In this document: positions 8,602 through 20,532 of the stretch, in pieces | How the letters are laid out: each line of letters opens with the position of its first letter | Position numbering within the stretch: position 1 is the stretch's first letter | Origin: a bacterium c-19 | Lineage (GTDB): Bacteria > Bacillota_I > Bacilli_A > Erysipelotrichales > Erysipelotrichaceae | Length of the DNA: 64,000 nt | Direction of reading: 5' to 3' | Assembly: GCA_009917405.1 (NCBI GenBank) | Contig: QZED01000002.1 | Coordinates: 1 to 64,000, forward strand | Program-made: the position numbers and the translations under genes | The notes under the pieces: generated by a model | Databases searched by the model: none | Told to the model about the DNA's origin: nothing | Seen by the model: only the letters and a program-made list of their open reading frames with translations

Positions 8602-9192
8602 TTATTGCGCAATAAATTCACGAATTTTTCTTTTTGCCTTATCGGCTCTTTTACCTTCAAAATCATAATTGAAAAACTTAATAATAGAAGCGATATCACT
8701 GCAATAGTCATCACTGTCCACAATATCCTCCATATACTCTACATCACAGCCGTTTGCTTTGCATATCGTCTCGATCAGTTCATAACCGTATCGAACAAGT
8801 GAATCACGGCGCACGGCAATCAGCTTCGCTACCTTATGTTCCAAAACCAAGGAAAGCACCTCACTCAATCCTTTGCGCTTATAATCCAAACCGCTTCCGA
8901 CCTCAGAAATAATTTGATAATTCCAATCCTGATCATCCATATATTCCTTTAATAACTGTACTTGACGTTCAAGCTCATAAGACCTGCTTTTGCGATTAAC
9001 ACGGCAAAATCCGATAACCAAGCGATCTTCATTTTTAATGAATTGATCTAGTTGTTCCTTAGAATACAGCTTTCTTCCATTTTCATTTACGACTGCCGGT
9101 TTTAAGGTACCGTTGCGATCCCAATTACGCAAAGTTTGAGAACTTTTACCGATCAGATTCGCAAACTCCCCGATTCGATAATAATTTGCCAT
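8602..9192 (-). CDS. IS607-type serine recombinase (TnpA-like), active site degenerate; probable DNA-binding relic
   Basis: The 196-residue protein has the two-part plan of IS607 transposases: an N-terminal MerR-like helix-turn-helix (residues 1-55, RIGEFANLIGKSSQTLRNW) and a serine recombinase fold (57-196; ELERQVQLLKEY, VGSGLDYKRKGL, GKRADKAK). Three key positions differ from active relatives. The catalytic serine of the usual RVSS motif is Asn66 (RVNRKS), the first arginine of the DRLxR motif is Ser131 (RDSLVRYG), and the FSxRL arginine is Asp177 (FNYDFEG). Everything else is intact and uninterrupted. No tnpB and no insertion ends are seen. It is therefore probably not an active transposase but a retained DNA-binding protein; this is inference. 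ATG at 9192 has AAAGGGG upstream. Confidence 0.85.
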   Translation of the reverse strand: MANYYRIGEFANLIGKSSQTLRNWDRNGTLKPAVVNENGRKLYSKEQLDQFIKNEDRLVIGFCRVNRKSRSYELERQVQLLKEYMDDQDWNYQIISEVGSGLDYKRKGLSEVLSLVLEHKVAKLIAVRRDSLVRYGYELIETICKANGCDVEYMEDIVDSDDYCSDIASIIKFFNYDFEGKRADKAKRKIREFIAQ

Positions 9193-9221
9193 AATGACCC
9201 CTTTCATGGTAACTTCTACAT

Positions 9222-9254
9222 ATAATAGACCCATTTTTCATGAAAAAAGTTCAA
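9222..9254 (-). promoter_or_regulatory. Possible promoter with palindrome TTTTTCATGAAAAA
   Basis: On the minus strand TTGAAC (9249-9254) and TATTAT (9222-9227) are separated by 21 bases, and a perfect 14-bp palindrome (9234-9247) fills the spacer. Long spacers centred on a palindrome are typical of MerR-type promoters, and the gene downstream has a MerR-like helix-turn-helix. Autoregulation is inference. Confidence 0.4.
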
Positions 9255-9293: not shown

Positions 9294-10607
9294 TCATTTT
9301 TCACTTGTTTCTTTCGGTATTTTATCAACTGTCGCAAAACGATAGCCTTTTTGCTTCATCGCTTTAATAAAGGGATCCATCGCTAAATAATTGCCTTTAT
9401 TAGAAGGGTGCAGAAGATAAATCGCTCCGTTATGATAATGCTTTAACAATGTATTCAGTGCCTGTTCCCCGCTTACATCTTCGGCATAATCATAATACGC
9501 ATGACTCCAAAAATAATTAGAATAACCAAGATCCTGTACAAGCTTTAAACTGCGCTCACTCATCCCGCCCTTGGGAAAACGAAATACCTTTTTCATCGGT
9601 TGCCCCGTAACCTGCATATACGTTTTTTCACATTCCGTAATTTCCGAAACAAAGCGATCGATATCCTTTTCATTCGCAAGAGTCGGCATATCATAATGAT
9701 GCCAAGAATGGTTGCCGATCACATGGCCGTGAGCCACAAGATCATTGATAAATTCTGGATTATCCTTAATATAATTGCGAGTCAGGAAGAAAGTTGCCTG
9801 AACATCGTTGTCATTCAGCACACCGGCAATCTCTTTAATATACGTAATGTCATTCCCGCCCTCATCAAAGGTTAAATAAATTGTTTTGTCATCAGGCCCC
9901 ATCATATAGGCATCATACTTTGCCAAAAGACTTTCTTCGCGGCAACCTGTGGTGCGGTTATTGTTTTCACTCTTATGAAACCACCATTCCTCAGCCTTGT
10001 TATCAAACTGATCATGATTGTAATACAGCTTTTCATCTGTCGGATCTTTACATACCTCAACACTGCGCTTGATCGTTGCCGTATTGCCACTGGTATCATT
10101 AACTGTATAAGTAATTTCATACGTCCCCTGCTTATTCATATCGAGAGCAGAAGCATCGACTTTTACCTGCTTGGTTAAATCGCCGTCATATTGATCACTC
10201 GCTTGAAAACCGGGATCCTTAAAGCTTTCCTTTTCAAATACCCGCATTGGATTTTGACCGTTCAATTTAATCGTCGGAGCCGTTGTATCTACAACCTCAA
10301 CAGTTCTTACCACTGATTTATCATATGTCTCAAATGTGTAGCGAATCTTATATGTCCCGAGCTTAGCAGTATCCAAGCTGCTTTCTACAACAATATTATC
10401 ACTGTAATCATGAAAACGAAAACGCGCTGTTGCGCCGGGATCTTGGAAATCTGTATTTACCTCAACCTGTAAAGTTTGTGAATCATTCAACTTGATTTGG
10501 GGGATAAACAAACCGCTGAAAAACAACAGCTTGATTAAAGCAGCTGCCAAACCAACGCAAACTGCCGCAATAATACCGTATACTACGATCTTACATCGCC
10601 TGCTCAT
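9294..10607 (-). CDS. PdaA-like peptidoglycan/polysaccharide deacetylase with two Ig-like (DUF5011) domains
   Basis: A membrane-anchored NodB-fold deacetylase. One hydrophobic helix (residues about 8-32) is followed by two DUF5011-type domains (about 38-110 and 112-188, both with the KLGTYKIRYTF / KQGTYEITYTV strand) and a NodB domain (about 235-430). The first metal motif reads TFDEGGND rather than TFDDG, the second is HSWHH, and the third is RFPKGGMSE; this pattern resembles PdaA, which removes acetyl from N-acetylmuramic acid. Loss of the second Asp is usual in the PdaA branch. ATG at 10607 is used since AGAGGTGA lies 7 bases upstream. It lies downstream of the cell-wall cluster and a second deacetylase lies on its far side. 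Substrate assignment is by similarity only. Confidence 0.87.
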   Translation of the reverse strand: MSRRCKIVVYGIIAAVCVGLAAALIKLLFFSGLFIPQIKLNDSQTLQVEVNTDFQDPGATARFRFHDYSDNIVVESSLDTAKLGTYKIRYTFETYDKSVVRTVEVVDTTAPTIKLNGQNPMRVFEKESFKDPGFQASDQYDGDLTKQVKVDASALDMNKQGTYEITYTVNDTSGNTATIKRSVEVCKDPTDEKLYYNHDQFDNKAEEWWFHKSENNNRTTGCREESLLAKYDAYMMGPDDKTIYLTFDEGGNDITYIKEIAGVLNDNDVQATFFLTRNYIKDNPEFINDLVAHGHVIGNHSWHHYDMPTLANEKDIDRFVSEITECEKTYMQVTGQPMKKVFRFPKGGMSERSLKLVQDLGYSNYFWSHAYYDYAEDVSGEQALNTLLKHYHNGAIYLLHPSNKGNYLAMDPFIKAMKQKGYRFATVDKIPKETSEK

Positions 10608-10737
10608 CAAATCACCTCTACAACAAAGATACGCAGAAACAGTTTAAAAATTGCCTTATTTTTCAAATTTCAACAAAAGATAAAGAATGAATTGATACAG
10701 TTTTGCGTTATCATACTTGCCGCATTTTTTATTGATA

Positions 10738-10762
10738 CAAAAAAAGTGCTTCACGGAAGCAC
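10738..10762 (-). terminator. Terminator of the murF operon
   Basis: GTGCTTC/GAAGCAC with a 3-base loop followed by seven T on the minus strand, 12 bases after the stop of the FAD protein. Confidence 0.8.
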
Positions 10763-12375: not shown

Positions 12376-13326
12376 TTAGCTGCCGAATACTTCATCGGCT
12401 GAATGTGCTTTGAAATAGATATCAGGCAAAGCAGTGATTGCCTGTTCCAAATAAGGGCGGCTTTCGGTTTCCGGAAAAACACGAAAAATGGTCGCTTCAA
12501 ACGTAAAAGCACATGCATGATACTGATAAGCATCGATCAGCTCCTGCAAAATTGTTTGTGCAAACTTACGTGAAAATGATTTTAACAAATAGTTTTTTAA
12601 TTCCTTCATTGCCGGCAACTCTATCGCATAATAGCGGGAAGTTCGCTTGAGCAGCTCATCTTGACTGCACAGCTCATAGGTTAAATCAGGATGTGCGGTA
12701 ATTCCGCGATATGTATTCATAAAATCTAAATCATTCAGGATAATGAAAGAAGCTGTTTGACCACGACGCTGGATTTGTACTCCCTGCAGCACATTTCGTC
12801 TTGATAAACGCCATGTAACAGATGAAAATAAATGCTCAGGATCAATAGTAACACCGTAATTTCTCAGCATCTCGCAGCATTGATTCATTTCCAATAATCC
12901 ATAGGAATAAAATAATCCAAGTATTATATCATCCTGCCGCTTCATTTCTGCCATCAGTGGATCATAATGACGTGTACGAGCAATTCGCTGTGCAAAATCA
13001 TGCGCCTCTTCACGTATTTGATACCAGCCGTAATCCTTTTCTTTCGTCAAACTGGGAATCTCTTCAATAACATTCAGCTCCAACAGCTGTTCAACCGGAT
13101 AATGCGGCAAATGTAGCGGACGATTGGGATGACGAAGCAGACACTTAACGGTCTTATATGCTGATTTATCGCAAAGATAAAAGAAATTGCGCTTTTTCCC
13201 GTGCAGCAGTAAATGCTCCAACTGTGTTCGATTTTTATTTTGGCAGCGCTCAAAATCATACAAATAACCAATGAGATCACGCAATTGTTCTTCGCTCAAT
13301 GCCGCTGCCATTTCGTTCCAATTCAT
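12376..13326 (-). CDS. Conserved-looking protein of unknown function
   Basis: No family was recognised. The 316-residue protein is soluble, with no signal peptide or membrane helix, rich in leucine, arginine and aromatic residues, and predicted mostly helical. It has several cysteines (for example C42, and a QCCEMLRNYG pair near 155) but no obvious metal motif. The central SSVTWRLSRRNVLQGVQI region could be a winged helix, weakly. It begins one base after the stop of the VanT-like membrane protein and is followed 12 bases later by the FAD protein, so it is part of the murF operon by position. AAAGGTG lies about 11 bases before the ATG. Confidence 0.7.
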   Translation of the reverse strand: MNWNEMAAALSEEQLRDLIGYLYDFERCQNKNRTQLEHLLLHGKKRNFFYLCDKSAYKTVKCLLRHPNRPLHLPHYPVEQLLELNVIEEIPSLTKEKDYGWYQIREEAHDFAQRIARTRHYDPLMAEMKRQDDIILGLFYSYGLLEMNQCCEMLRNYGVTIDPEHLFSSVTWRLSRRNVLQGVQIQRRGQTASFIILNDLDFMNTYRGITAHPDLTYELCSQDELLKRTSRYYAIELPAMKELKNYLLKSFSRKFAQTILQELIDAYQYHACAFTFEATIFRVFPETESRPYLEQAITALPDIYFKAHSADEVFGS

Positions 13327-13327
13327 A

Positions 13328-14356
13328 TTACATCAACACCTTTAACTGCGGATAACGCTTTGATAAAACAAGCACTGAGGCAGAAAATACACTTGAACAT
13401 AAAATAGTCAGTATATAAACACTGAAATTTGATAAATGAAGAAGATTCAAAAACAACGTAATAAAATATATATGACTGACATAAATCAAAAGGGACAGCT
13501 TACGCATACACAAAGTCAGTGCATTGCCATTAAAAGAAAACTGCAACAGGAAGATAAACAAGAAAAATACTGTCGGTATCAAGCACAAATACATACTTGT
13601 TAAATCATTACTCATATGTAAGCTGCGATATAAGAAAGCCTCACCGCATAAAGCACAAAAACTGACAGCGAAAGCAATTCCTGCCGGTTTTTTATAGTTT
13701 TGATTCTTAAACTCCTGTGCATACAGACCGAGAATCAAATATAAGGGTGCAAAAAAGATTCCGTTGCGCGCCGTAACAAAGACACTTTCATACAGCTGCA
13801 AAACTGATTGAATTCCTGCGACATTGCCCAGCACGGATCCATAAACATTGCTCAGCATACCGATCACATACAACAGAATGCATACCCACAACGCATGTTG
13901 CTTTTTCAATTTCATTGCCAATAAATACACGATCACAATACCGAGCAGAAGTGCCGGCAAAAACCACAGATGATAATAAGTGCCGTTAAATAAAAAGTCA
14001 CGCAACAGTCGAAGACATGTGGAAACATCAAAACCGCCTTTGATCCAAGATCCGATTAACAGTGGTAAATAAAGTGCACTCCAAACAAGATACAGCTTTA
14101 AAATGCGCATCCAGTAATGCTTCAACATTTGTAGATTGGTTTCATCGCGAATCCCGTTTTTTAAATTGATCTTTTGAAAAAACAGCCAGCCGGATGCCAT
14201 AAAAAAGAACGGCACTGCCAAACGGGCAAATATTTGTACATAGATAAAATTTCCTGTTTCATTTATTTCATAAAACGGGGCGCAGTGAATTGCGATTACA
14301 AATAAGGCACTGATAAATTTCGCAATATCAATGATCCCATAATTCCTTTTCTCCAT
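13328..14356 (-). CDS. Acyltransferase-3-type membrane protein resembling the membrane half of VanT
   Basis: 342 residues with about ten membrane helices of the acyltransferase 3 family. The N-terminus (YGIIDIAKFISALFVIAIHC, then RLAVPFFFMASGWLFF) closely resembles the membrane half of VanT serine racemases, in which such a domain is joined to a cytosolic racemase. Here the racemase is the separate gene just upstream, 41 bases away, so this looks like a split VanT. In VanT the membrane part is thought to bring L-serine into the cell; here that is inference. AGGAAGGG precedes the ATG. A small hairpin between the two genes may lower its expression. An alternative is an ordinary O-acyltransferase acting on wall polymers. 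Confidence 0.82.
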   Translation of the reverse strand: MEKRNYGIIDIAKFISALFVIAIHCAPFYEINETGNFIYVQIFARLAVPFFFMASGWLFFQKINLKNGIRDETNLQMLKHYWMRILKLYLVWSALYLPLLIGSWIKGGFDVSTCLRLLRDFLFNGTYYHLWFLPALLLGIVIVYLLAMKLKKQHALWVCILLYVIGMLSNVYGSVLGNVAGIQSVLQLYESVFVTARNGIFFAPLYLILGLYAQEFKNQNYKKPAGIAFAVSFCALCGEAFLYRSLHMSNDLTSMYLCLIPTVFFLFIFLLQFSFNGNALTLCMRKLSLLIYVSHIYFITLFLNLLHLSNFSVYILTILCSSVFSASVLVLSKRYPQLKVLM

Positions 14357-14377
14357 AAAATTCCCTTCCTGAAATAA

Positions 14378-14399
14378 AACAGCAGAGTTTACTGCTGTT
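14378..14399 (-). terminator. Hairpin at the end of the racemase gene
   Basis: AACAGCAG/CTGCTGTT stem, 6-base loop, then TTTTATTT on the minus strand; it overlaps the racemase stop codon. It may partly uncouple the next gene. Confidence 0.55.
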
Positions 14400-15549
14400 A
14401 TTTATAAATGCGCGGTACACGGGCGCTCAGCCAACATAAAGCTTCGTTATTAATCGTATGCGCGCAGCGAGATAATTCATCAACGCTCAATAATACATCA
14501 TGATCATATCCAAATAAAACAACCTCATCACCGGCATGAACATCATGAACGTGACTGACATCGACCATCATCTGATCCATACAGATATTACCGATGATTT
14601 CACAGCGCTGACCATGAACCAGTACGTGCTTTCCTTGATTGGATACATTACGGGGATACCCGTCGGCATAACCGCAACTGATCGTCGCAATGCGCATCCG
14701 CTGCGCAACGGTATAATGACGCCCGTAACTGACACTGCAGCCACTTTGCACTTCTCGCACATAGGAAATATTTGCTTTCCATGTCATAATTGGATGAAAA
14801 TCCGGTTTCTGGTTTGTTTCAATCGCATTATCGGCTGTCACACCCAAATGTAAAAGACCCGGACGCACATAATCATAGTGCAGTTGCGGATAATTCATTA
14901 TTCCGTAGCTATTCTGTAAATGAGTGATACCTGCTTCAATTCCGGCAGCTTTTAATTCTGCCAATACTTGATCAAAATATTGAATTTGATGCTCGGTAAA
15001 ATCCAAATCTGCCTGATCAATCAAACTGTCACTGACCGAAAAATGTGAAAAAATCCCATCGGTATGAATATACGGAAGCTGATACATTTTCTTTACAGCC
15101 TCTATATTCCAGCACTCCTTTTTACACGGTATTCCCAAACGCGTCATGCCGGTATCCACCTTTACATGAGCATGAATCCACACCTCATGAGCTTTTGCGT
15201 AATCTGAAAGCGCATATGCATATTCCTCTGATATCAAGGTTTGAATGACATGATATTCATGAAGATAGTGAAAATGTTGCTTCGGAGTATAGCCTAAAAT
15301 CAAAATCGAATCATCGATGCCAGCATTTCGCAAATTAATTGCCTCATCAATACTGGAAACGGCAAAAAAATCAACCCCGCAAGCTTTTAATGCTTTACTG
15401 ATGGCAATATCTCCGTGTCCGTATGCGTTAGCCTTTACGACGCCCATAATCTTCGTTGTCGCCGGAATCATTTTACGGATTTCTGCGACATTATGCTTGA
15501 TATAGCTCAAATCCACCTCTGCCCAGCAGCGACTGCTATCCTCTAACAT
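14398..15549 (-). CDS. alr: Alanine/serine racemase, VanT-like catalytic type
   Basis: A PLP-dependent fold III racemase of 383 residues. The PLP lysine is K39 in VVKANAYGHG and the second catalytic tyrosine is in SYGRHYT. Two features point to the VanT branch rather than ordinary Alr. The segment HLQNSYGIMNYPQL matches the VanT form HIQSSYG. The C-terminal motif reads INNE, with Asn368 where Bacillus alanine racemase has Tyr354; VanT of the VanG type has Asn696 there, and the change is linked to serine racemisation. It can plausibly make both D-Ala and D-Ser. It sits between the VanG-like ligase (32 bases upstream) and the VanT-like membrane protein. AGAGGTGG precedes the ATG. Whether it is the only alanine racemase of the cell cannot be seen. 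Confidence 0.93.
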   Translation of the reverse strand: MLEDSSRCWAEVDLSYIKHNVAEIRKMIPATTKIMGVVKANAYGHGDIAISKALKACGVDFFAVSSIDEAINLRNAGIDDSILILGYTPKQHFHYLHEYHVIQTLISEEYAYALSDYAKAHEVWIHAHVKVDTGMTRLGIPCKKECWNIEAVKKMYQLPYIHTDGIFSHFSVSDSLIDQADLDFTEHQIQYFDQVLAELKAAGIEAGITHLQNSYGIMNYPQLHYDYVRPGLLHLGVTADNAIETNQKPDFHPIMTWKANISYVREVQSGCSVSYGRHYTVAQRMRIATISCGYADGYPRNVSNQGKHVLVHGQRCEIIGNICMDQMMVDVSHVHDVHAGDEVVLFGYDHDVLLSVDELSRCAHTINNEALCWLSARVPRIYK

Positions 15550-15581
15550 GGTACTCCACCTCTTTATCTAAAGTATATGCT

Positions 15582-16646
15582 TTATTCCATCGCTAAATCG
15601 ATTAAACGGTCGATTAAATCCGGAAATTCGATTCCCGCTTCCTTCATCATCGACGGATAACGGCTTGTTGCGGTAAAGCCCGGAATCGTATTCAGTTCAT
15701 TAAAGATAATTGTCTGATCCTTTGTCACAAACATATCCACGCGTGTCATACCCTTGCAGTTCATTGCTTGATAAGCACGCAAAGCGAGATCTTGTGCCTG
15801 CGCAAACAATTCCTTGGAAATACGAGCAGGACAATGAATTGCCGAATTAAGCATTTCATACTTACCTTCATAATCAAACAACTCTTGACTTGTTTCAATT
15901 TCATCTACACTGCCGACAAACAGCTCATGATTACCCATGACTGCACAGCCGATTTCAAAGCCTTCAATCGTAGCTTCCAAAATGACCTTGCCCTTGCCGT
16001 CATGATAAAAGGCATCAGTTAAAGCTGTCTGAAATTCTTGAAAGTCATGCACTTTATGAACACCGAAACTGCTTCCGGCATTGCACGCTTTAATAAAGAA
16101 CGGTACCTTTAATTGTTCTGCGGCTTGTTCATACAATGCCTTTTCATCAGTAACCTGATGTTCATATACCGCCATATACGGGGCACACGGCACCCCGGCA
16201 CGCTCACATACAATGTGTGTCATTTCCTTATCCATACAAATTGCGGAACTCATATGACCACAGCCGACATACGGCAGCTGCATCAACTCCAGCATTCCCT
16301 GTAATGTTCCGTCCTCACCGTTTTTACCGTGAAGCACCGGAAATACGCAGTCGATTTCTAACGGTATTGACGGGACATCTTCCTGCAATAAGAAAAAGCC
16401 ATGATGCTTCTTTGTACAGGCAAAGCCGATCGGTCGATTATCTGCGTGCGTCAGCCAGTGATCATGTTCCAAATCGTCGATGGATCCTTGATATAAATAC
16501 CAGTCTCCCGTCTGTGAAATACCGATCATTGTAATATCATAGCGTTCTCTGTTGATCTGTCTCAATAAAGATGCCGTACTATGTAAGGATACCGGATATT
16601 CACTTGATTTTCCACCGAATATCACGGCAAGTTTTATTTTTTTCAT
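15582..16646 (-). CDS. ddl: D-alanine--D-alanine/D-serine ligase, VanG-like subfamily
   Basis: ATP-grasp ligase (354 residues) that joins D-Ala to D-Ala or D-Ser for the end of the peptidoglycan stem. Characteristic segments are VFPVLHGKNGEDGTLQG, ACNAGSSFGV and NELNTIPGFTATSRYP. The N-terminal SSEYPVSL (14-21) has Tyr where D-Ala-D-Ala ligases usually have His or Arg, as in VanC and VanG. The stretch FEIGCAVMGN...GSVDEIE and FDYEGKYEML also follow VanG closely, although the loop has EGKY rather than the TEKY of VanG. D-Ala-D-Ser activity is therefore likely but not proven. AGAGGTAG precedes the ATG; murF ends 13 bases upstream. No VanX/VanXY or VanRS gene is in the window. Confidence 0.92.
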   Translation of the reverse strand: MKKIKLAVIFGGKSSEYPVSLHSTASLLRQINRERYDITMIGISQTGDWYLYQGSIDDLEHDHWLTHADNRPIGFACTKKHHGFFLLQEDVPSIPLEIDCVFPVLHGKNGEDGTLQGMLELMQLPYVGCGHMSSAICMDKEMTHIVCERAGVPCAPYMAVYEHQVTDEKALYEQAAEQLKVPFFIKACNAGSSFGVHKVHDFQEFQTALTDAFYHDGKGKVILEATIEGFEIGCAVMGNHELFVGSVDEIETSQELFDYEGKYEMLNSAIHCPARISKELFAQAQDLALRAYQAMNCKGMTRVDMFVTKDQTIIFNELNTIPGFTATSRYPSMMKEAGIEFPDLIDRLIDLAME

Positions 16647-16659
16647 AAGCTACCTCTGT

Positions 16660-18045
16660 CTATTGAATTAATGCATCGACAACCTCATCCATTTTCATAC
16701 TGCGGCTGCCCTTAATTAAAATCATACATTCTTTATTGCGATACGGCATTAAATACGCAATCAGCTTCGCTTTATCGGCAAAGTGCTGAACATGTAGGGT
16801 ACCGTCGCTTTGATCAATCGCACCTTGTGCAATATAAGCACCCATTTCCCCGTAGGTCAGCACCTCGGAAACACCGTATTCAGCTGTCTGCTTTCCTAAC
16901 TGAAAATGAATTAAATCGCTTTGATCTCCGAGATCCAGCATATCGGCAAATACCGCAATCTTATAAGGAATATCAAATAAGACCAATGTTTCTAAAGCAG
17001 CTATACTGCTTTGCGGATTTGATTTATAGGAATCATTTAAAATCAATGCTTTATTCGCACGCATCAATTCATTGCGCATACCCGTTTTTTCAATCGTATT
17101 CAAGCCGAATTGAATGTCCGTATCCGAAAGCTGAAGCGCTCGTGCCGCAATCATTGCACTGATCGCATTTACGGCTTGATGTTTACCAAGCATATCCATC
17201 GTAAAGCGTGTAGGCTCATCATTCACACTGAAAGTAATGCCGTCTTCCGTCTGCTGCACATAAGATAAATAGACATCATTGCCGGAATTTTCACCAAATG
17301 TTTTAATGCGGATATCACCGTTGATTCCTTCCTTAGTGACCGCATCACGCAGCAGCTTTTGATCACCGTTATAAATTAACATACCGAAAGGTGCCAAACC
17401 ATGAGTGATTTCCAGCTTTGCCTTCGCAATATTTTCCTGAGTTTTTAAATTTTCCAAATGAGCAGTACCGATATTCGTTATTATCGCAATATCTGGACAT
17501 ACCATTTTCGTCAGAAAATCTATTTCATTCAGATTTTCCATTCCCATTTCAATTACCGCAACTTGAGTATTTTCACTCATTGACAACAATGTGAGCGGCA
17601 CGCCGATTTCATTATTGTAATTACCTAATGTCTTTTGCGTAACATAGCGCTGTGACAACATCCCCGCTAAAATATCCTTTGTGCTTGTTTTACCGTTACT
17701 GCCGGTAATCCCTATGACTTTCATCGACAGCTGGCGACGATAAACGGCAGCCAACTTCTGCAGTGCCGCCAATGTATCGTCAACTAATATCACGGTGATA
17801 TTTTCCGGCGGAAACGCTTCATCCCGATTCCAAAGTGTGGCAGCTGCGCCCTTTTGTATCGCCTGCTGCACAAACTCATGACCATTGTTATTGGCGCCCT
17901 TTATAGGAACGTATAAATTTCCCTCAACGACCTTACGGGAATCAATACACACACCGCATACGCGCTTCTGAATGTCATCATTGTCTATATAATCGGCATC
18001 AAGCATACGAATGATGCCGTCTACGGAACGAAGTATCATATACAC
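16660..18045 (-). CDS. murF: UDP-N-acetylmuramoyl-tripeptide--D-alanyl-D-alanine ligase
   Basis: Adds the terminal dipeptide to UDP-MurNAc-tripeptide, the last cytosolic step of the lipid II precursor. 461 residues, normal for MurF. The ATP-binding P-loop GITGSNGKTSTKD is at about 112-124, followed by the central AVIEMGMENLNEI segment and the C-terminal NDSYKSNPQS motif specific to MurF. GTG at 18045 is used (AGAGGA lies 6 bases upstream); an ATG two codons later is possible. It is first in the operon murF-ligase-racemase-VanT-like-unknown-FAD protein, behind an extended -10 promoter. Its pairing with a VanG-like ligase implies it must accept the dipeptide that ligase makes. Confidence 0.95.
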   Translation of the reverse strand: MYMILRSVDGIIRMLDADYIDNDDIQKRVCGVCIDSRKVVEGNLYVPIKGANNNGHEFVQQAIQKGAAATLWNRDEAFPPENITVILVDDTLAALQKLAAVYRRQLSMKVIGITGSNGKTSTKDILAGMLSQRYVTQKTLGNYNNEIGVPLTLLSMSENTQVAVIEMGMENLNEIDFLTKMVCPDIAIITNIGTAHLENLKTQENIAKAKLEITHGLAPFGMLIYNGDQKLLRDAVTKEGINGDIRIKTFGENSGNDVYLSYVQQTEDGITFSVNDEPTRFTMDMLGKHQAVNAISAMIAARALQLSDTDIQFGLNTIEKTGMRNELMRANKALILNDSYKSNPQSSIAALETLVLFDIPYKIAVFADMLDLGDQSDLIHFQLGKQTAEYGVSEVLTYGEMGAYIAQGAIDQSDGTLHVQHFADKAKLIAYLMPYRNKECMILIKGSRSMKMDEVVDALIQ

Positions 18046-19209: not shown

Positions 19210-20532
19210 CTACATAATTTTTCCTGCATCATTTTTACCGTATTCATATAATTCCGAAACAGTTACTAATTGAAAACCCATTTCCTGCAGCTTAGGAATC
19301 AAAATGATCGCAGCTTCGGCAGTTGATGCATATAAATCATGCATCAGTATAATGTCACCGTCCTTCACGTCCTTTATCACTTTATTTACAATTGTCTGCG
19401 CATTTCGGGAACGCCAATCCTCACTGTCAATAGTCCATGTCACAAGCTTTTTCCCTTGCGCACATTGCAACACTGTATCATTTTTAGAGCCGTACGGCGG
19501 TCTAATCACCTTCGGATATCGATTGGTGACATCATGGATTGACTCTTGGGTCGCACTGATTTCTTCTTCAATATTTGCCTTGGAAAGCGTAGTTAGCTGT
19601 TTATGCGTAAACGTATGATTTCCGATTTCATTTCCCTCTAATACCATACGCTGTAATAACTGAGGAAAATCATCGGCACGCGAACCGAGAACAAAGAAAG
19701 TGGCGGAAGCTTGATTTTCCTTTAAACAGTCTAATATGGCACTCGTATATTTTAATGTAGGACCGTCATCAAAGGTTAAGGCTACCATCGGTTTATTCTT
19801 ATCTATTTGCTTTACCGGTTCATTCAGCACATCCTGATACGGTACAAATACGCTTTCCTCTTCTTTTTCAATCGAGATCACATCTTTTAACGCCTCATAG
19901 TCAACTTCTACATACGTCCCATGATCCAACACCGTATGCGCATCAAAATAAAAGACGATTTCTCCCTTTCGTAAAATAAACTGATCAAAATTATGTGCAG
20001 CCGGTGCAGTATGAATCGCAAAGGCTTTACTGCCGCATTCCTTAGGGTACTGCGCTTTCAGCTTTTCCTGTACCATCGCACTGATCAAAGCGGTCGCTTC
20101 CTGATCAAATACATCATCATAAGCTAAAAATCGATCTTTTTTCTGATCATAAATTAAGGTTTCAATCACTTCTTTCTGACTTGTTCCGTTCATAAAAATA
20201 TCCAGCTTTACGGAAATATAGCGATCATCTTTTACATAAGACTGATAATCCACATTAAATTCATAGCGATCATCCGATTTCACAAACGGCTGTGCCAGAA
20301 AATCCTTTTTATAGCTGTGAATTATCCTTTGTATTTCTTCATCTAACGCTGTTATATCAGTTTTCGGATAAATCAAATTCATCACATACGTATCCTCATA
20401 TTCCTTTTCATGAACACTTTCACCAAATTCATGATGATCACTTTGATGATTGACTTTTAGTGATTGTGTACTCGCACACGCACCTAAAAAACAAAGTATA
20501 GATATGATTAATAGTATCCTTTTTTTATTCAT
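19210..20532 (-). CDS. PdaC-like polysaccharide deacetylase lipoprotein
   Basis: A secreted, probably lipid-anchored deacetylase: the signal ILCFLGAC gives a lipobox with the cysteine at about residue 19. Residues about 40-225 are the DUF4163/DUF3298 pair found in PdaC, with strands such as YDQKKDRFLAYDDVF. Residues about 245-430 are a canonical NodB domain with TFDDGPT, HTFTH, RPPYGSKND and the closing DIILMHDLY, so all metal and catalytic motifs are present. PdaC removes acetyl groups from N-acetylmuramic acid or chitin-like oligomers, a change that commonly gives lysozyme resistance. CAGGTGA precedes the ATG; the gene is divergent from typA and apparently alone. Confidence 0.92.
   Translation of the reverse strand: MNKKRILLIISILCFLGACASTQSLKVNHQSDHHEFGESVHEKEYEDTYVMNLIYPKTDITALDEEIQRIIHSYKKDFLAQPFVKSDDRYEFNVDYQSYVKDDRYISVKLDIFMNGTSQKEVIETLIYDQKKDRFLAYDDVFDQEATALISAMVQEKLKAQYPKECGSKAFAIHTAPAAHNFDQFILRKGEIVFYFDAHTVLDHGTYVEVDYEALKDVISIEKEEESVFVPYQDVLNEPVKQIDKNKPMVALTFDDGPTLKYTSAILDCLKENQASATFFVLGSRADDFPQLLQRMVLEGNEIGNHTFTHKQLTTLSKANIEEEISATQESIHDVTNRYPKVIRPPYGSKNDTVLQCAQGKKLVTWTIDSEDWRSRNAQTIVNKVIKDVKDGDIILMHDLYASTAEAAIILIPKLQEMGFQLVTVSELYEYGKNDAGKIM

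Follow-up and report, generated by a model that had tools for sequence, protein, structure and literature searches.

A MurF-linked VanG-like ligase and VanT-like racemase as a candidate D-Ala-D-Ser cell-wall pathway in the Erysipelotrichaceae

The four-gene operon and its active-site residues

We analysed a stretch of 64,000 nucleotides (the window; contig QZED01000002.1, positions 1 to 64,000) from bacterium c-19, a member of the family Erysipelotrichaceae. Four consecutive genes at 13328-18045, all on the minus strand, encode MurF, a VanG-like ligase, a VanT-like racemase and an AT3 membrane protein, and are separated in that order by gaps of 13, 32 and 41 bp. This operon is a candidate pathway for wall precursors ending in D-alanyl-D-serine (D-Ala-D-Ser), and its residues, phylogeny and distribution are described below.

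MurF, the UDP-MurNAc-tripeptide:D-Ala-D-X ligase (16660..18045), has 461 amino acids (aa) when read from GTG, with an alternative ATG start at codon 3. It contains Pfam Mur_ligase domains and scores 393.6 bits against the NCBIfam murF model, well above the cut-off of 288.6. The D-Ala-D-X ligase, predicted to form D-Ala-D-Ser (15582..16646; 354 aa), and the fold-III pyridoxal-phosphate racemase (14398..15549; 383 aa) were assigned from NCBIfam models, PDB matches and trees, and the AT3/TmAT membrane protein (13328..14356; 342 aa) from Pfam PF01757 and the NCBIfam VanT models. The initial annotation of this DNA had listed the four genes as consecutive and had pointed to the motifs SSEYPVSL, FEIGCAVMGN and FDYEGKY in the ligase and to INNE (with Asn368) and QNSYG in the racemase; the gene order, motifs and residue numbers were all correct. 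The resemblance to VanG and VanT is not of a kind that chance would give, because the best matches are VanTG (4ECL) and VanG (4FU0) and the same operon and residues recur in ∼23 genera.

For the ligase, VanG was the best of 50 NCBIfam models (445 bits, under the cut-off of 495), and VanG 4FU0 was the best PDB match by sequence. In an alignment with VanG, VanC1, VanN and DdlA, the ligase has Phe257 (codon 15876..15878) in its omega loop, where Ddl has Tyr, and Arg329 (codon 15660..15662, within NTIPGFTATSRYP), where Ddl has Met. The loop FDYEGKY aligns with FDYTEKY of VanG and FDFEEKY of VanC, and the His-containing EPEKG loop of the D-lactate (D-Lac) ligases of the VanA/B type is absent from the operon ligase. 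The omega-loop comparison with VanG, VanC and Ddl that the initial annotation had proposed thus gave a VanG/VanC-type loop lacking the D-lactate signature. We considered Phe257 and Arg329 as a sufficient D-Ser-specific signature and rejected it. As VanB and VanM carry both residues, the pair is a mark of Van-type rather than of D-Ser ligases, and has to be read together with the loop type and the phylogeny.

In a ligase tree built by a careful method, the MurF-linked ligases formed a clade (support 91/93) beside the VanG group and apart from Ddl. The attributes of a housekeeping Ddl, namely the omega-loop Tyr, Met at the Arg329 position and grouping with Ddl, were all lacking in the operon ligase. 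D-Ser specificity of this enzyme is, in our view, a well-founded prediction.

The racemase gave vanT-G-Cterm as its best NCBIfam model (438 bits, under the cut-off of 460), and VanTG 4ECL was its best solved structure both by sequence and by fold. Its AlphaFold model (predicted local distance difference test score, pLDDT, 92) matched 4ECL (TM 0.93-0.96) ahead of all alanine racemases. The catalytic set of Alr is retained (K39, H169, R229, Y275 and C323-M324-D325). Two other positions are exchanged relative to the Alr controls from C. difficile and Listeria: Asn368 (codon 14446..14448) stands in place of Tyr354, and Tyr215 of QNSYG (codon 14905..14907) in place of Ala205. VanT-G, VanT-C and VanT-N carry the same Asn and Tyr, so that the VanT-like residues claimed earlier for this racemase are indeed common to VanT and foreign to the Alr controls. 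In the alignment, all the operon racemases have Asn at the Tyr354 position.

A racemase tree, built by a quick method, placed all the operon racemases and the known VanT proteins in a 69-row Asn-rich clade (Shimodaira-Hasegawa-like approximate likelihood ratio, SH-aLRT, 100), separate from a 32-row Alr group having Tyr in all rows but two. Within the VanT superclade, the operon racemases of the window's family formed their own branch (97), with one lineage apart; this branch is a sister of VanT and is not nested inside it. The operon racemase therefore has the VanT properties of Asn at the Tyr354 position with the catalytic residues kept and of grouping with VanT instead of Alr. It does not have membrane and racemase domains in one chain, as these are two genes in reverse order. 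The two properties of housekeeping Alr, Tyr354 and a place among Alr, are replaced by Asn and a separate branch. We predict that it is a serine/alanine racemase.

A grouping of the two enzymes with housekeeping Ddl and Alr had been named at the outset as a result that would speak against a D-Ser reading, and both were found in Van-type clades. The residues and phylogeny of both enzymes support that reading; the Phe/Arg pair alone is not D-Ser-specific, in view of VanB and VanM. In these trees, the ligase and the racemase are a sister branch of the Van enzymes, being neither housekeeping Alr and Ddl nor members proper of VanG operons.

Distribution of the operon and sources of D-Ala and D-Ala-D-Ala

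We surveyed the neighbourhoods of racemases in 87 genomes (58 genera) of the same family. Thirty-three genomes, from ∼23 of the 58 genera (∼40% of those sampled), had a MurF-ligase-racemase operon in which the three positions are occupied by Asn, Phe and Arg; these VanT/VanG exchanges were invariant (33/33). Carriers identified by the genome-contig scan were Longicatena caecimuris, Amedibacillus dolichus, Merdibacter massiliensis, Holdemanella biformis, Floccifex porci, Faecalicoccus acidiformans, Catenisphaera adipataccumulans, Absicoccus porci, Faecalitalea cylindroides and Traorella massiliensis.

Several variants were observed in the survey. MurF and the VanG-like ligase are fused in a single open reading frame (ORF) of 784-808 aa in L069 (3923-6277) and L122 (3641-5995), both from Ileibacterium sp., and in L070 (4231-6657); MurF-type ORFs of ∼812 aa in genomes G014, G015, G069 and G070 are probably also fusions. 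At L075 3538-7073 and L080 2862-6397, a similar operon has Tyr/Leu at the Phe/Arg positions of the ligase and Asp at the Asn position of the racemase, and this joint change may be a return to D-Ala; the ligase and racemase show these residues together in the related genomes G032 and G079, outside the 33-genome set. Searches with the racemase, the Ddl N-domain and MurF all found nothing in genomes G022 and G061 (98-99% complete), which are perhaps wall-less or wall-reduced members of the family.

In the genome to which the window belongs (98% complete), no protein other than the operon racemase has both Alr domains; the second PF01168 match lies in a 240-aa frame. A single Ala_racemase_C protein was found in this genome and in 23 of the 24 operon genomes tested. 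No D-amino-acid transaminase scored over the cut-off in the window genome or in 23 further operon genomes; IlvE is the sole class IV transaminase of the window genome. Because it is the sole Alr-type enzyme and no D-amino-acid transaminase was found, the operon racemase would have to supply D-Ala as well, unless D-Ala is imported.

A search for a second ddl, suggested in the initial annotation, revealed an ordinary Ddl-type ligase on another contig of the window genome (C124; L039 957-3729). This distant Ddl is without the Van exchanges, has the unusual motif NTIPGSLSFYLFEP in place of NTxPGFTxxS, and adjoins a membrane-anchored MurF-like protein (525 aa) that scores below the NCBIfam murF cut-off. 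Several family members that lack the operon have a Ddl of this type and no other.

Among the operon genomes, 16 have both ligases, and in 16 others (12 genera) the operon ligase is the only PF01820 match. The latter include Holdemanella, Faecalicoccus and Catenisphaera, and 12 of the 16 are at least 90% complete and at most 5% contaminated. In a tree of MurF, ligase and racemase together, 15 of the 16 sole-ligase genomes formed one clade (100/99) with the two-ligase genomes as its sister (99/97); G047, the remaining one, falls elsewhere in the tree. In most of the sole-ligase clade, the ligase gene and the racemase gene share a 7-bp overlap. The simplest reading of these data is DISPLACEMENT of Alr and Ddl, in which the operon would have replaced Alr first and Ddl later in one lineage.

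These observations bear on the possibility that the two proteins are housekeeping enzymes merely resembling VanG and VanT, that is, mainly an alanine racemase and a D-Ala-D-Ala ligase building an ordinary wall. The operon sits with murF and is widespread, its ligase is the only Ddl in 16 genomes, where its racemase is also the only Alr except in one, and the NCBIfam alr and Ddl models match the operon racemase and ligase above cut-off. However, the invariance of the exchanges in both active sites and the phylogeny of both enzymes argue against such a role, as does the fact that the ligase and racemase changed together in G032 and G079. Moreover, genomes that retain the ordinary Ddl would need no second D-Ala-D-Ala ligase. 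We therefore regard this explanation as unlikely, though one to be reckoned with.

The membrane protein, absent resistance genes and neighbouring genes

The best NCBIfam models of the AT3 protein are the membrane halves of VanT and VanT-L, in agreement with the relationship proposed in the initial annotation. The TmAT acyltransferase fold is defined by the motifs DxxR/Kx10H, RxxR/K in transmembrane helix (TMH) 3 and SxxxY in TMH9, within 10 helices (PMC12423673). The AT3 protein has DxxKx10H, RxxK and SxxxY; these motifs hardly vary among 49 operon sequences and are for the most part conserved in 14 VanT-type sequences. A sequence profile search of the PDB with this protein gave no match. With its AlphaFold2 model (pLDDT 89), the highest-probability PDB match was human HGSNAT, an acetyl-CoA-dependent acyltransferase (probability 0.92, TMq 0.48, E-value not significant). 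The motifs together with this match place the protein with the AT3/TmAT acyltransferases, and the modelled fold would fit a VanT membrane part with a function beyond L-Ser transport. In 26 of the 31 operon loci having enough flank, the AT3 gene lies next to the racemase gene. Since some relatives are without AT3 beside the operon, the protein is probably a membrane partner or an acyltransferase and not a required subunit.

The initial annotation had also described VanT as divided into two genes. As a history, this was not upheld because the order of the two genes, racemase then membrane protein, is the reverse of that in VanT and VanL; the racemase branch is sister to VanT and does not lie within it, and a two-gene VanT was already known. 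Separate subunits are encoded by vanTmL and vanTrL in VanL of Enterococcus faecalis (PMC9404765), and NCBIfam has models for the VanT-L subunits. The trees are silent on whether the two separate genes or the fused VanT came first.

As had been noted earlier, the 64-kb window contains no homologues of VanR, VanS or VanXY; we also found no VanX in the window genome. Two VanY-family proteins are encoded on other contigs, unlinked to the operon, with LdcB and weak VanY matches as their best models. The VanXY within the operon and the adjacent VanR/VanS that characterize VanG/VanC-type resistance operons are thus both lacking. Such an arrangement might also arise from a VanG-type resistance operon that had lost VanRS and VanXY, settled in the chromosome in a decayed or rebuilt form and still served resistance. 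Complete operons do occur nearby in taxonomic terms: L077 (652-6497), from another family of the same order, has VanR-VanS-VanG-VanXY and a two-gene VanT in membrane-racemase order, and fused VanT is present in a few other genera of the window's own family. The operon enzymes, on the other hand, branch separately, outside the VanG types, MurF is always included, and the gene order is different. The lineage-wide distribution with congruent subclades, and the replacement of Alr and in places of Ddl, likewise point away from a decayed resistance operon, which we consider improbable.

Labels of the type 'vanT in vanG cluster' in plasmid records were considered as evidence and rejected, as they are also given to ordinary Alr. 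In L191 (277-1383), an ordinary alanine racemase (Listeria, 35% identity) is labelled 'vanT gene in vanG cluster' by resistance-gene predictors. Labels of this kind on ordinary Alr may inflate reports of vanT.

Some further features surround the operon. A terminator-like stem that could reduce AT3 expression was detected by pattern match (14378-14399) in the 41 bp that separate the racemase gene from the AT3 gene. Directly 3' of the AT3 gene lies a gene for a 316-aa protein with no family assigned (12376..13326, minus strand). It is possibly co-transcribed with the operon. At this downstream position it was found in the same genus only, and it is outside the conserved module. A terminator-like hairpin with a T-run, found by pattern scan past the next gene (10746..10762, minus strand), is likely to be the end of the transcription unit. 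Two proteins with polysaccharide deacetylase domains, one of them also having Ig-like domains, flank the region (9294-10610 and 19210-20532) and are possible wall modification enzymes. At 8602-9234, a small protein has a MerR-like N-terminus and a resolvase-like region and resembles, by eye, an IS607-type recombinase.

A predicted D-Ala-D-Ser wall pathway and its known relatives

We propose, with a probability of roughly 70%, that the operon encodes a constitutive, chromosomal housekeeping pathway to D-Ala-D-Ser precursors rather than an induced resistance cassette, the specificity being predicted from residues and trees. The racemase would make D-Ser and, as the only such enzyme of the window genome, also D-Ala. 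The ligase would join D-Ala to D-Ser, and the adjacent MurF would add the dipeptide to UDP-MurNAc-tripeptide, giving stems that end in D-Ser and would bind vancomycin weakly. In the window genome, an ordinary Ddl coexists with this proposed route, and in the sister clade without Ddl the operon appears to be the sole one.

Certain observations weigh against the proposal. The Phe/Arg pair is common to D-Lac ligases, and both enzymes score just under the NCBI VanG and VanT cut-offs. The AT3 gene is not beside the racemase in 5 of the 31 assessable operon loci. Some D-Ala-D-Ala precursor is to be expected in the window genome, because the ordinary Ddl is kept and VanX was not found there. Finally, a sole racemase and a sole ligase could be bifunctional and make mainly D-Ala-D-Ala.

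D-Ser might alternatively be made mainly for another position in the wall, such as the interpeptide bridge, or for D-Ser metabolism, instead of for the stem terminus. Unusual peptidoglycan chemistry is on record in this order, in Erysipelothrix, where alr and murF are at separate loci (PMC9637936). In the operon, however, the racemase gene is directly 3' of the D-Ala-D-X ligase gene (overlapping it in the sister clade) and MurF comes before them. As the ligase and racemase are the two enzymes of the terminal dipeptide, with MurF alongside, a use of D-Ser elsewhere seems very improbable to us. Erysipelothrix is itself resistant to vancomycin.

The common view of D-Ala-D-Ser resistance is of an extra cassette, often induced, that accompanies a normal D-Ala-D-Ala pathway. 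Enzymes of the same kinds look like core wall genes in this gut family and are seemingly the only ones in 12 genera. If this is true, low-level intrinsic vancomycin resistance is predicted in many commensals, which would bear on the survivors of oral vancomycin. The operon is likely a wall-pathway relative, and possibly a source, of the D-Ser resistance genes. More tentatively, and at slightly less than an even chance, a clade of common gut genera (among them Holdemanella, Faecalicoccus, Catenisphaera, Floccifex and Faecalitalea) may have neither a D-Ala-D-Ala ligase nor an ordinary Alr and may build the whole wall on D-Ala-D-Ser stems; the operon would then share ancestry with the D-Ser cassettes, and the fused VanT may have arisen later than separate racemase and AT3 genes. 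Type strains of the sole-ligase genera offer a setting to ask whether a bacterium can live without D-Ala-D-Ala. In addition, the operon is a natural case in which the membrane part of VanT has a gene of its own, and this should help in asking what role the AT3 domain plays (PMC12423673).

D-Ala-D-Ser resistance, the VanT residues, the two-gene VanT of VanL and a biochemical precedent in C. innocuum are already known. C. innocuum is in the same family as the window organism. David et al. reportedly described two ligases and a racemase in it in 2004; to our knowledge, that report did not deal with a family-wide distribution, a sole racemase or the loss of Ddl in a sister clade. In the part of the literature that was searched, we did not find a family-wide operon with MurF, a sole racemase or a Ddl-less clade. 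The family-wide displacement appears, provisionally, to be new.

C. innocuum is among the closest known systems. PMC8888209 cites its intrinsic vancomycin resistance through two chromosomal genes and serine-terminated precursors, in line with the parallel drawn in the initial annotation. By this description, the likeness to the operon is that chromosomal genes would provide precursors with a terminal D-Ser. The module of ordinary Ddl and MurF-like protein on contig C124 resembles the operon in having a MurF-like protein adjoining a D-Ala-D-X ligase, and differs in that its MurF-like protein is membrane-anchored and its ligase is distant and has no Van exchanges. The AT3 protein shares its motifs and HGSNAT-like fold with the AT3/TmAT acyltransferases (OafB, OatA, HGSNAT and the membrane half of VanT), but unlike OafB, OatA and HGSNAT its gene is located in a wall-precursor operon. 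VanL, like the operon, has separate genes for the membrane and racemase parts (vanTmL and vanTrL in VanL). There, however, the membrane gene precedes the racemase gene inside a VanC-like operon, whereas here the racemase comes first, together with MurF. The VanG, VanC, VanE and VanN operons have homologues of the ligase, the racemase and the AT3 protein, with the same exchanges in the active sites; the operon described here includes MurF, has separate racemase and AT3 genes in reverse order, forms separate tree branches and is apparently housekeeping. It thus resembles the D-Ser branch of VanG/VanC and, because it has neither VanXY nor VanRS, stands outside the resistance operons of that branch.

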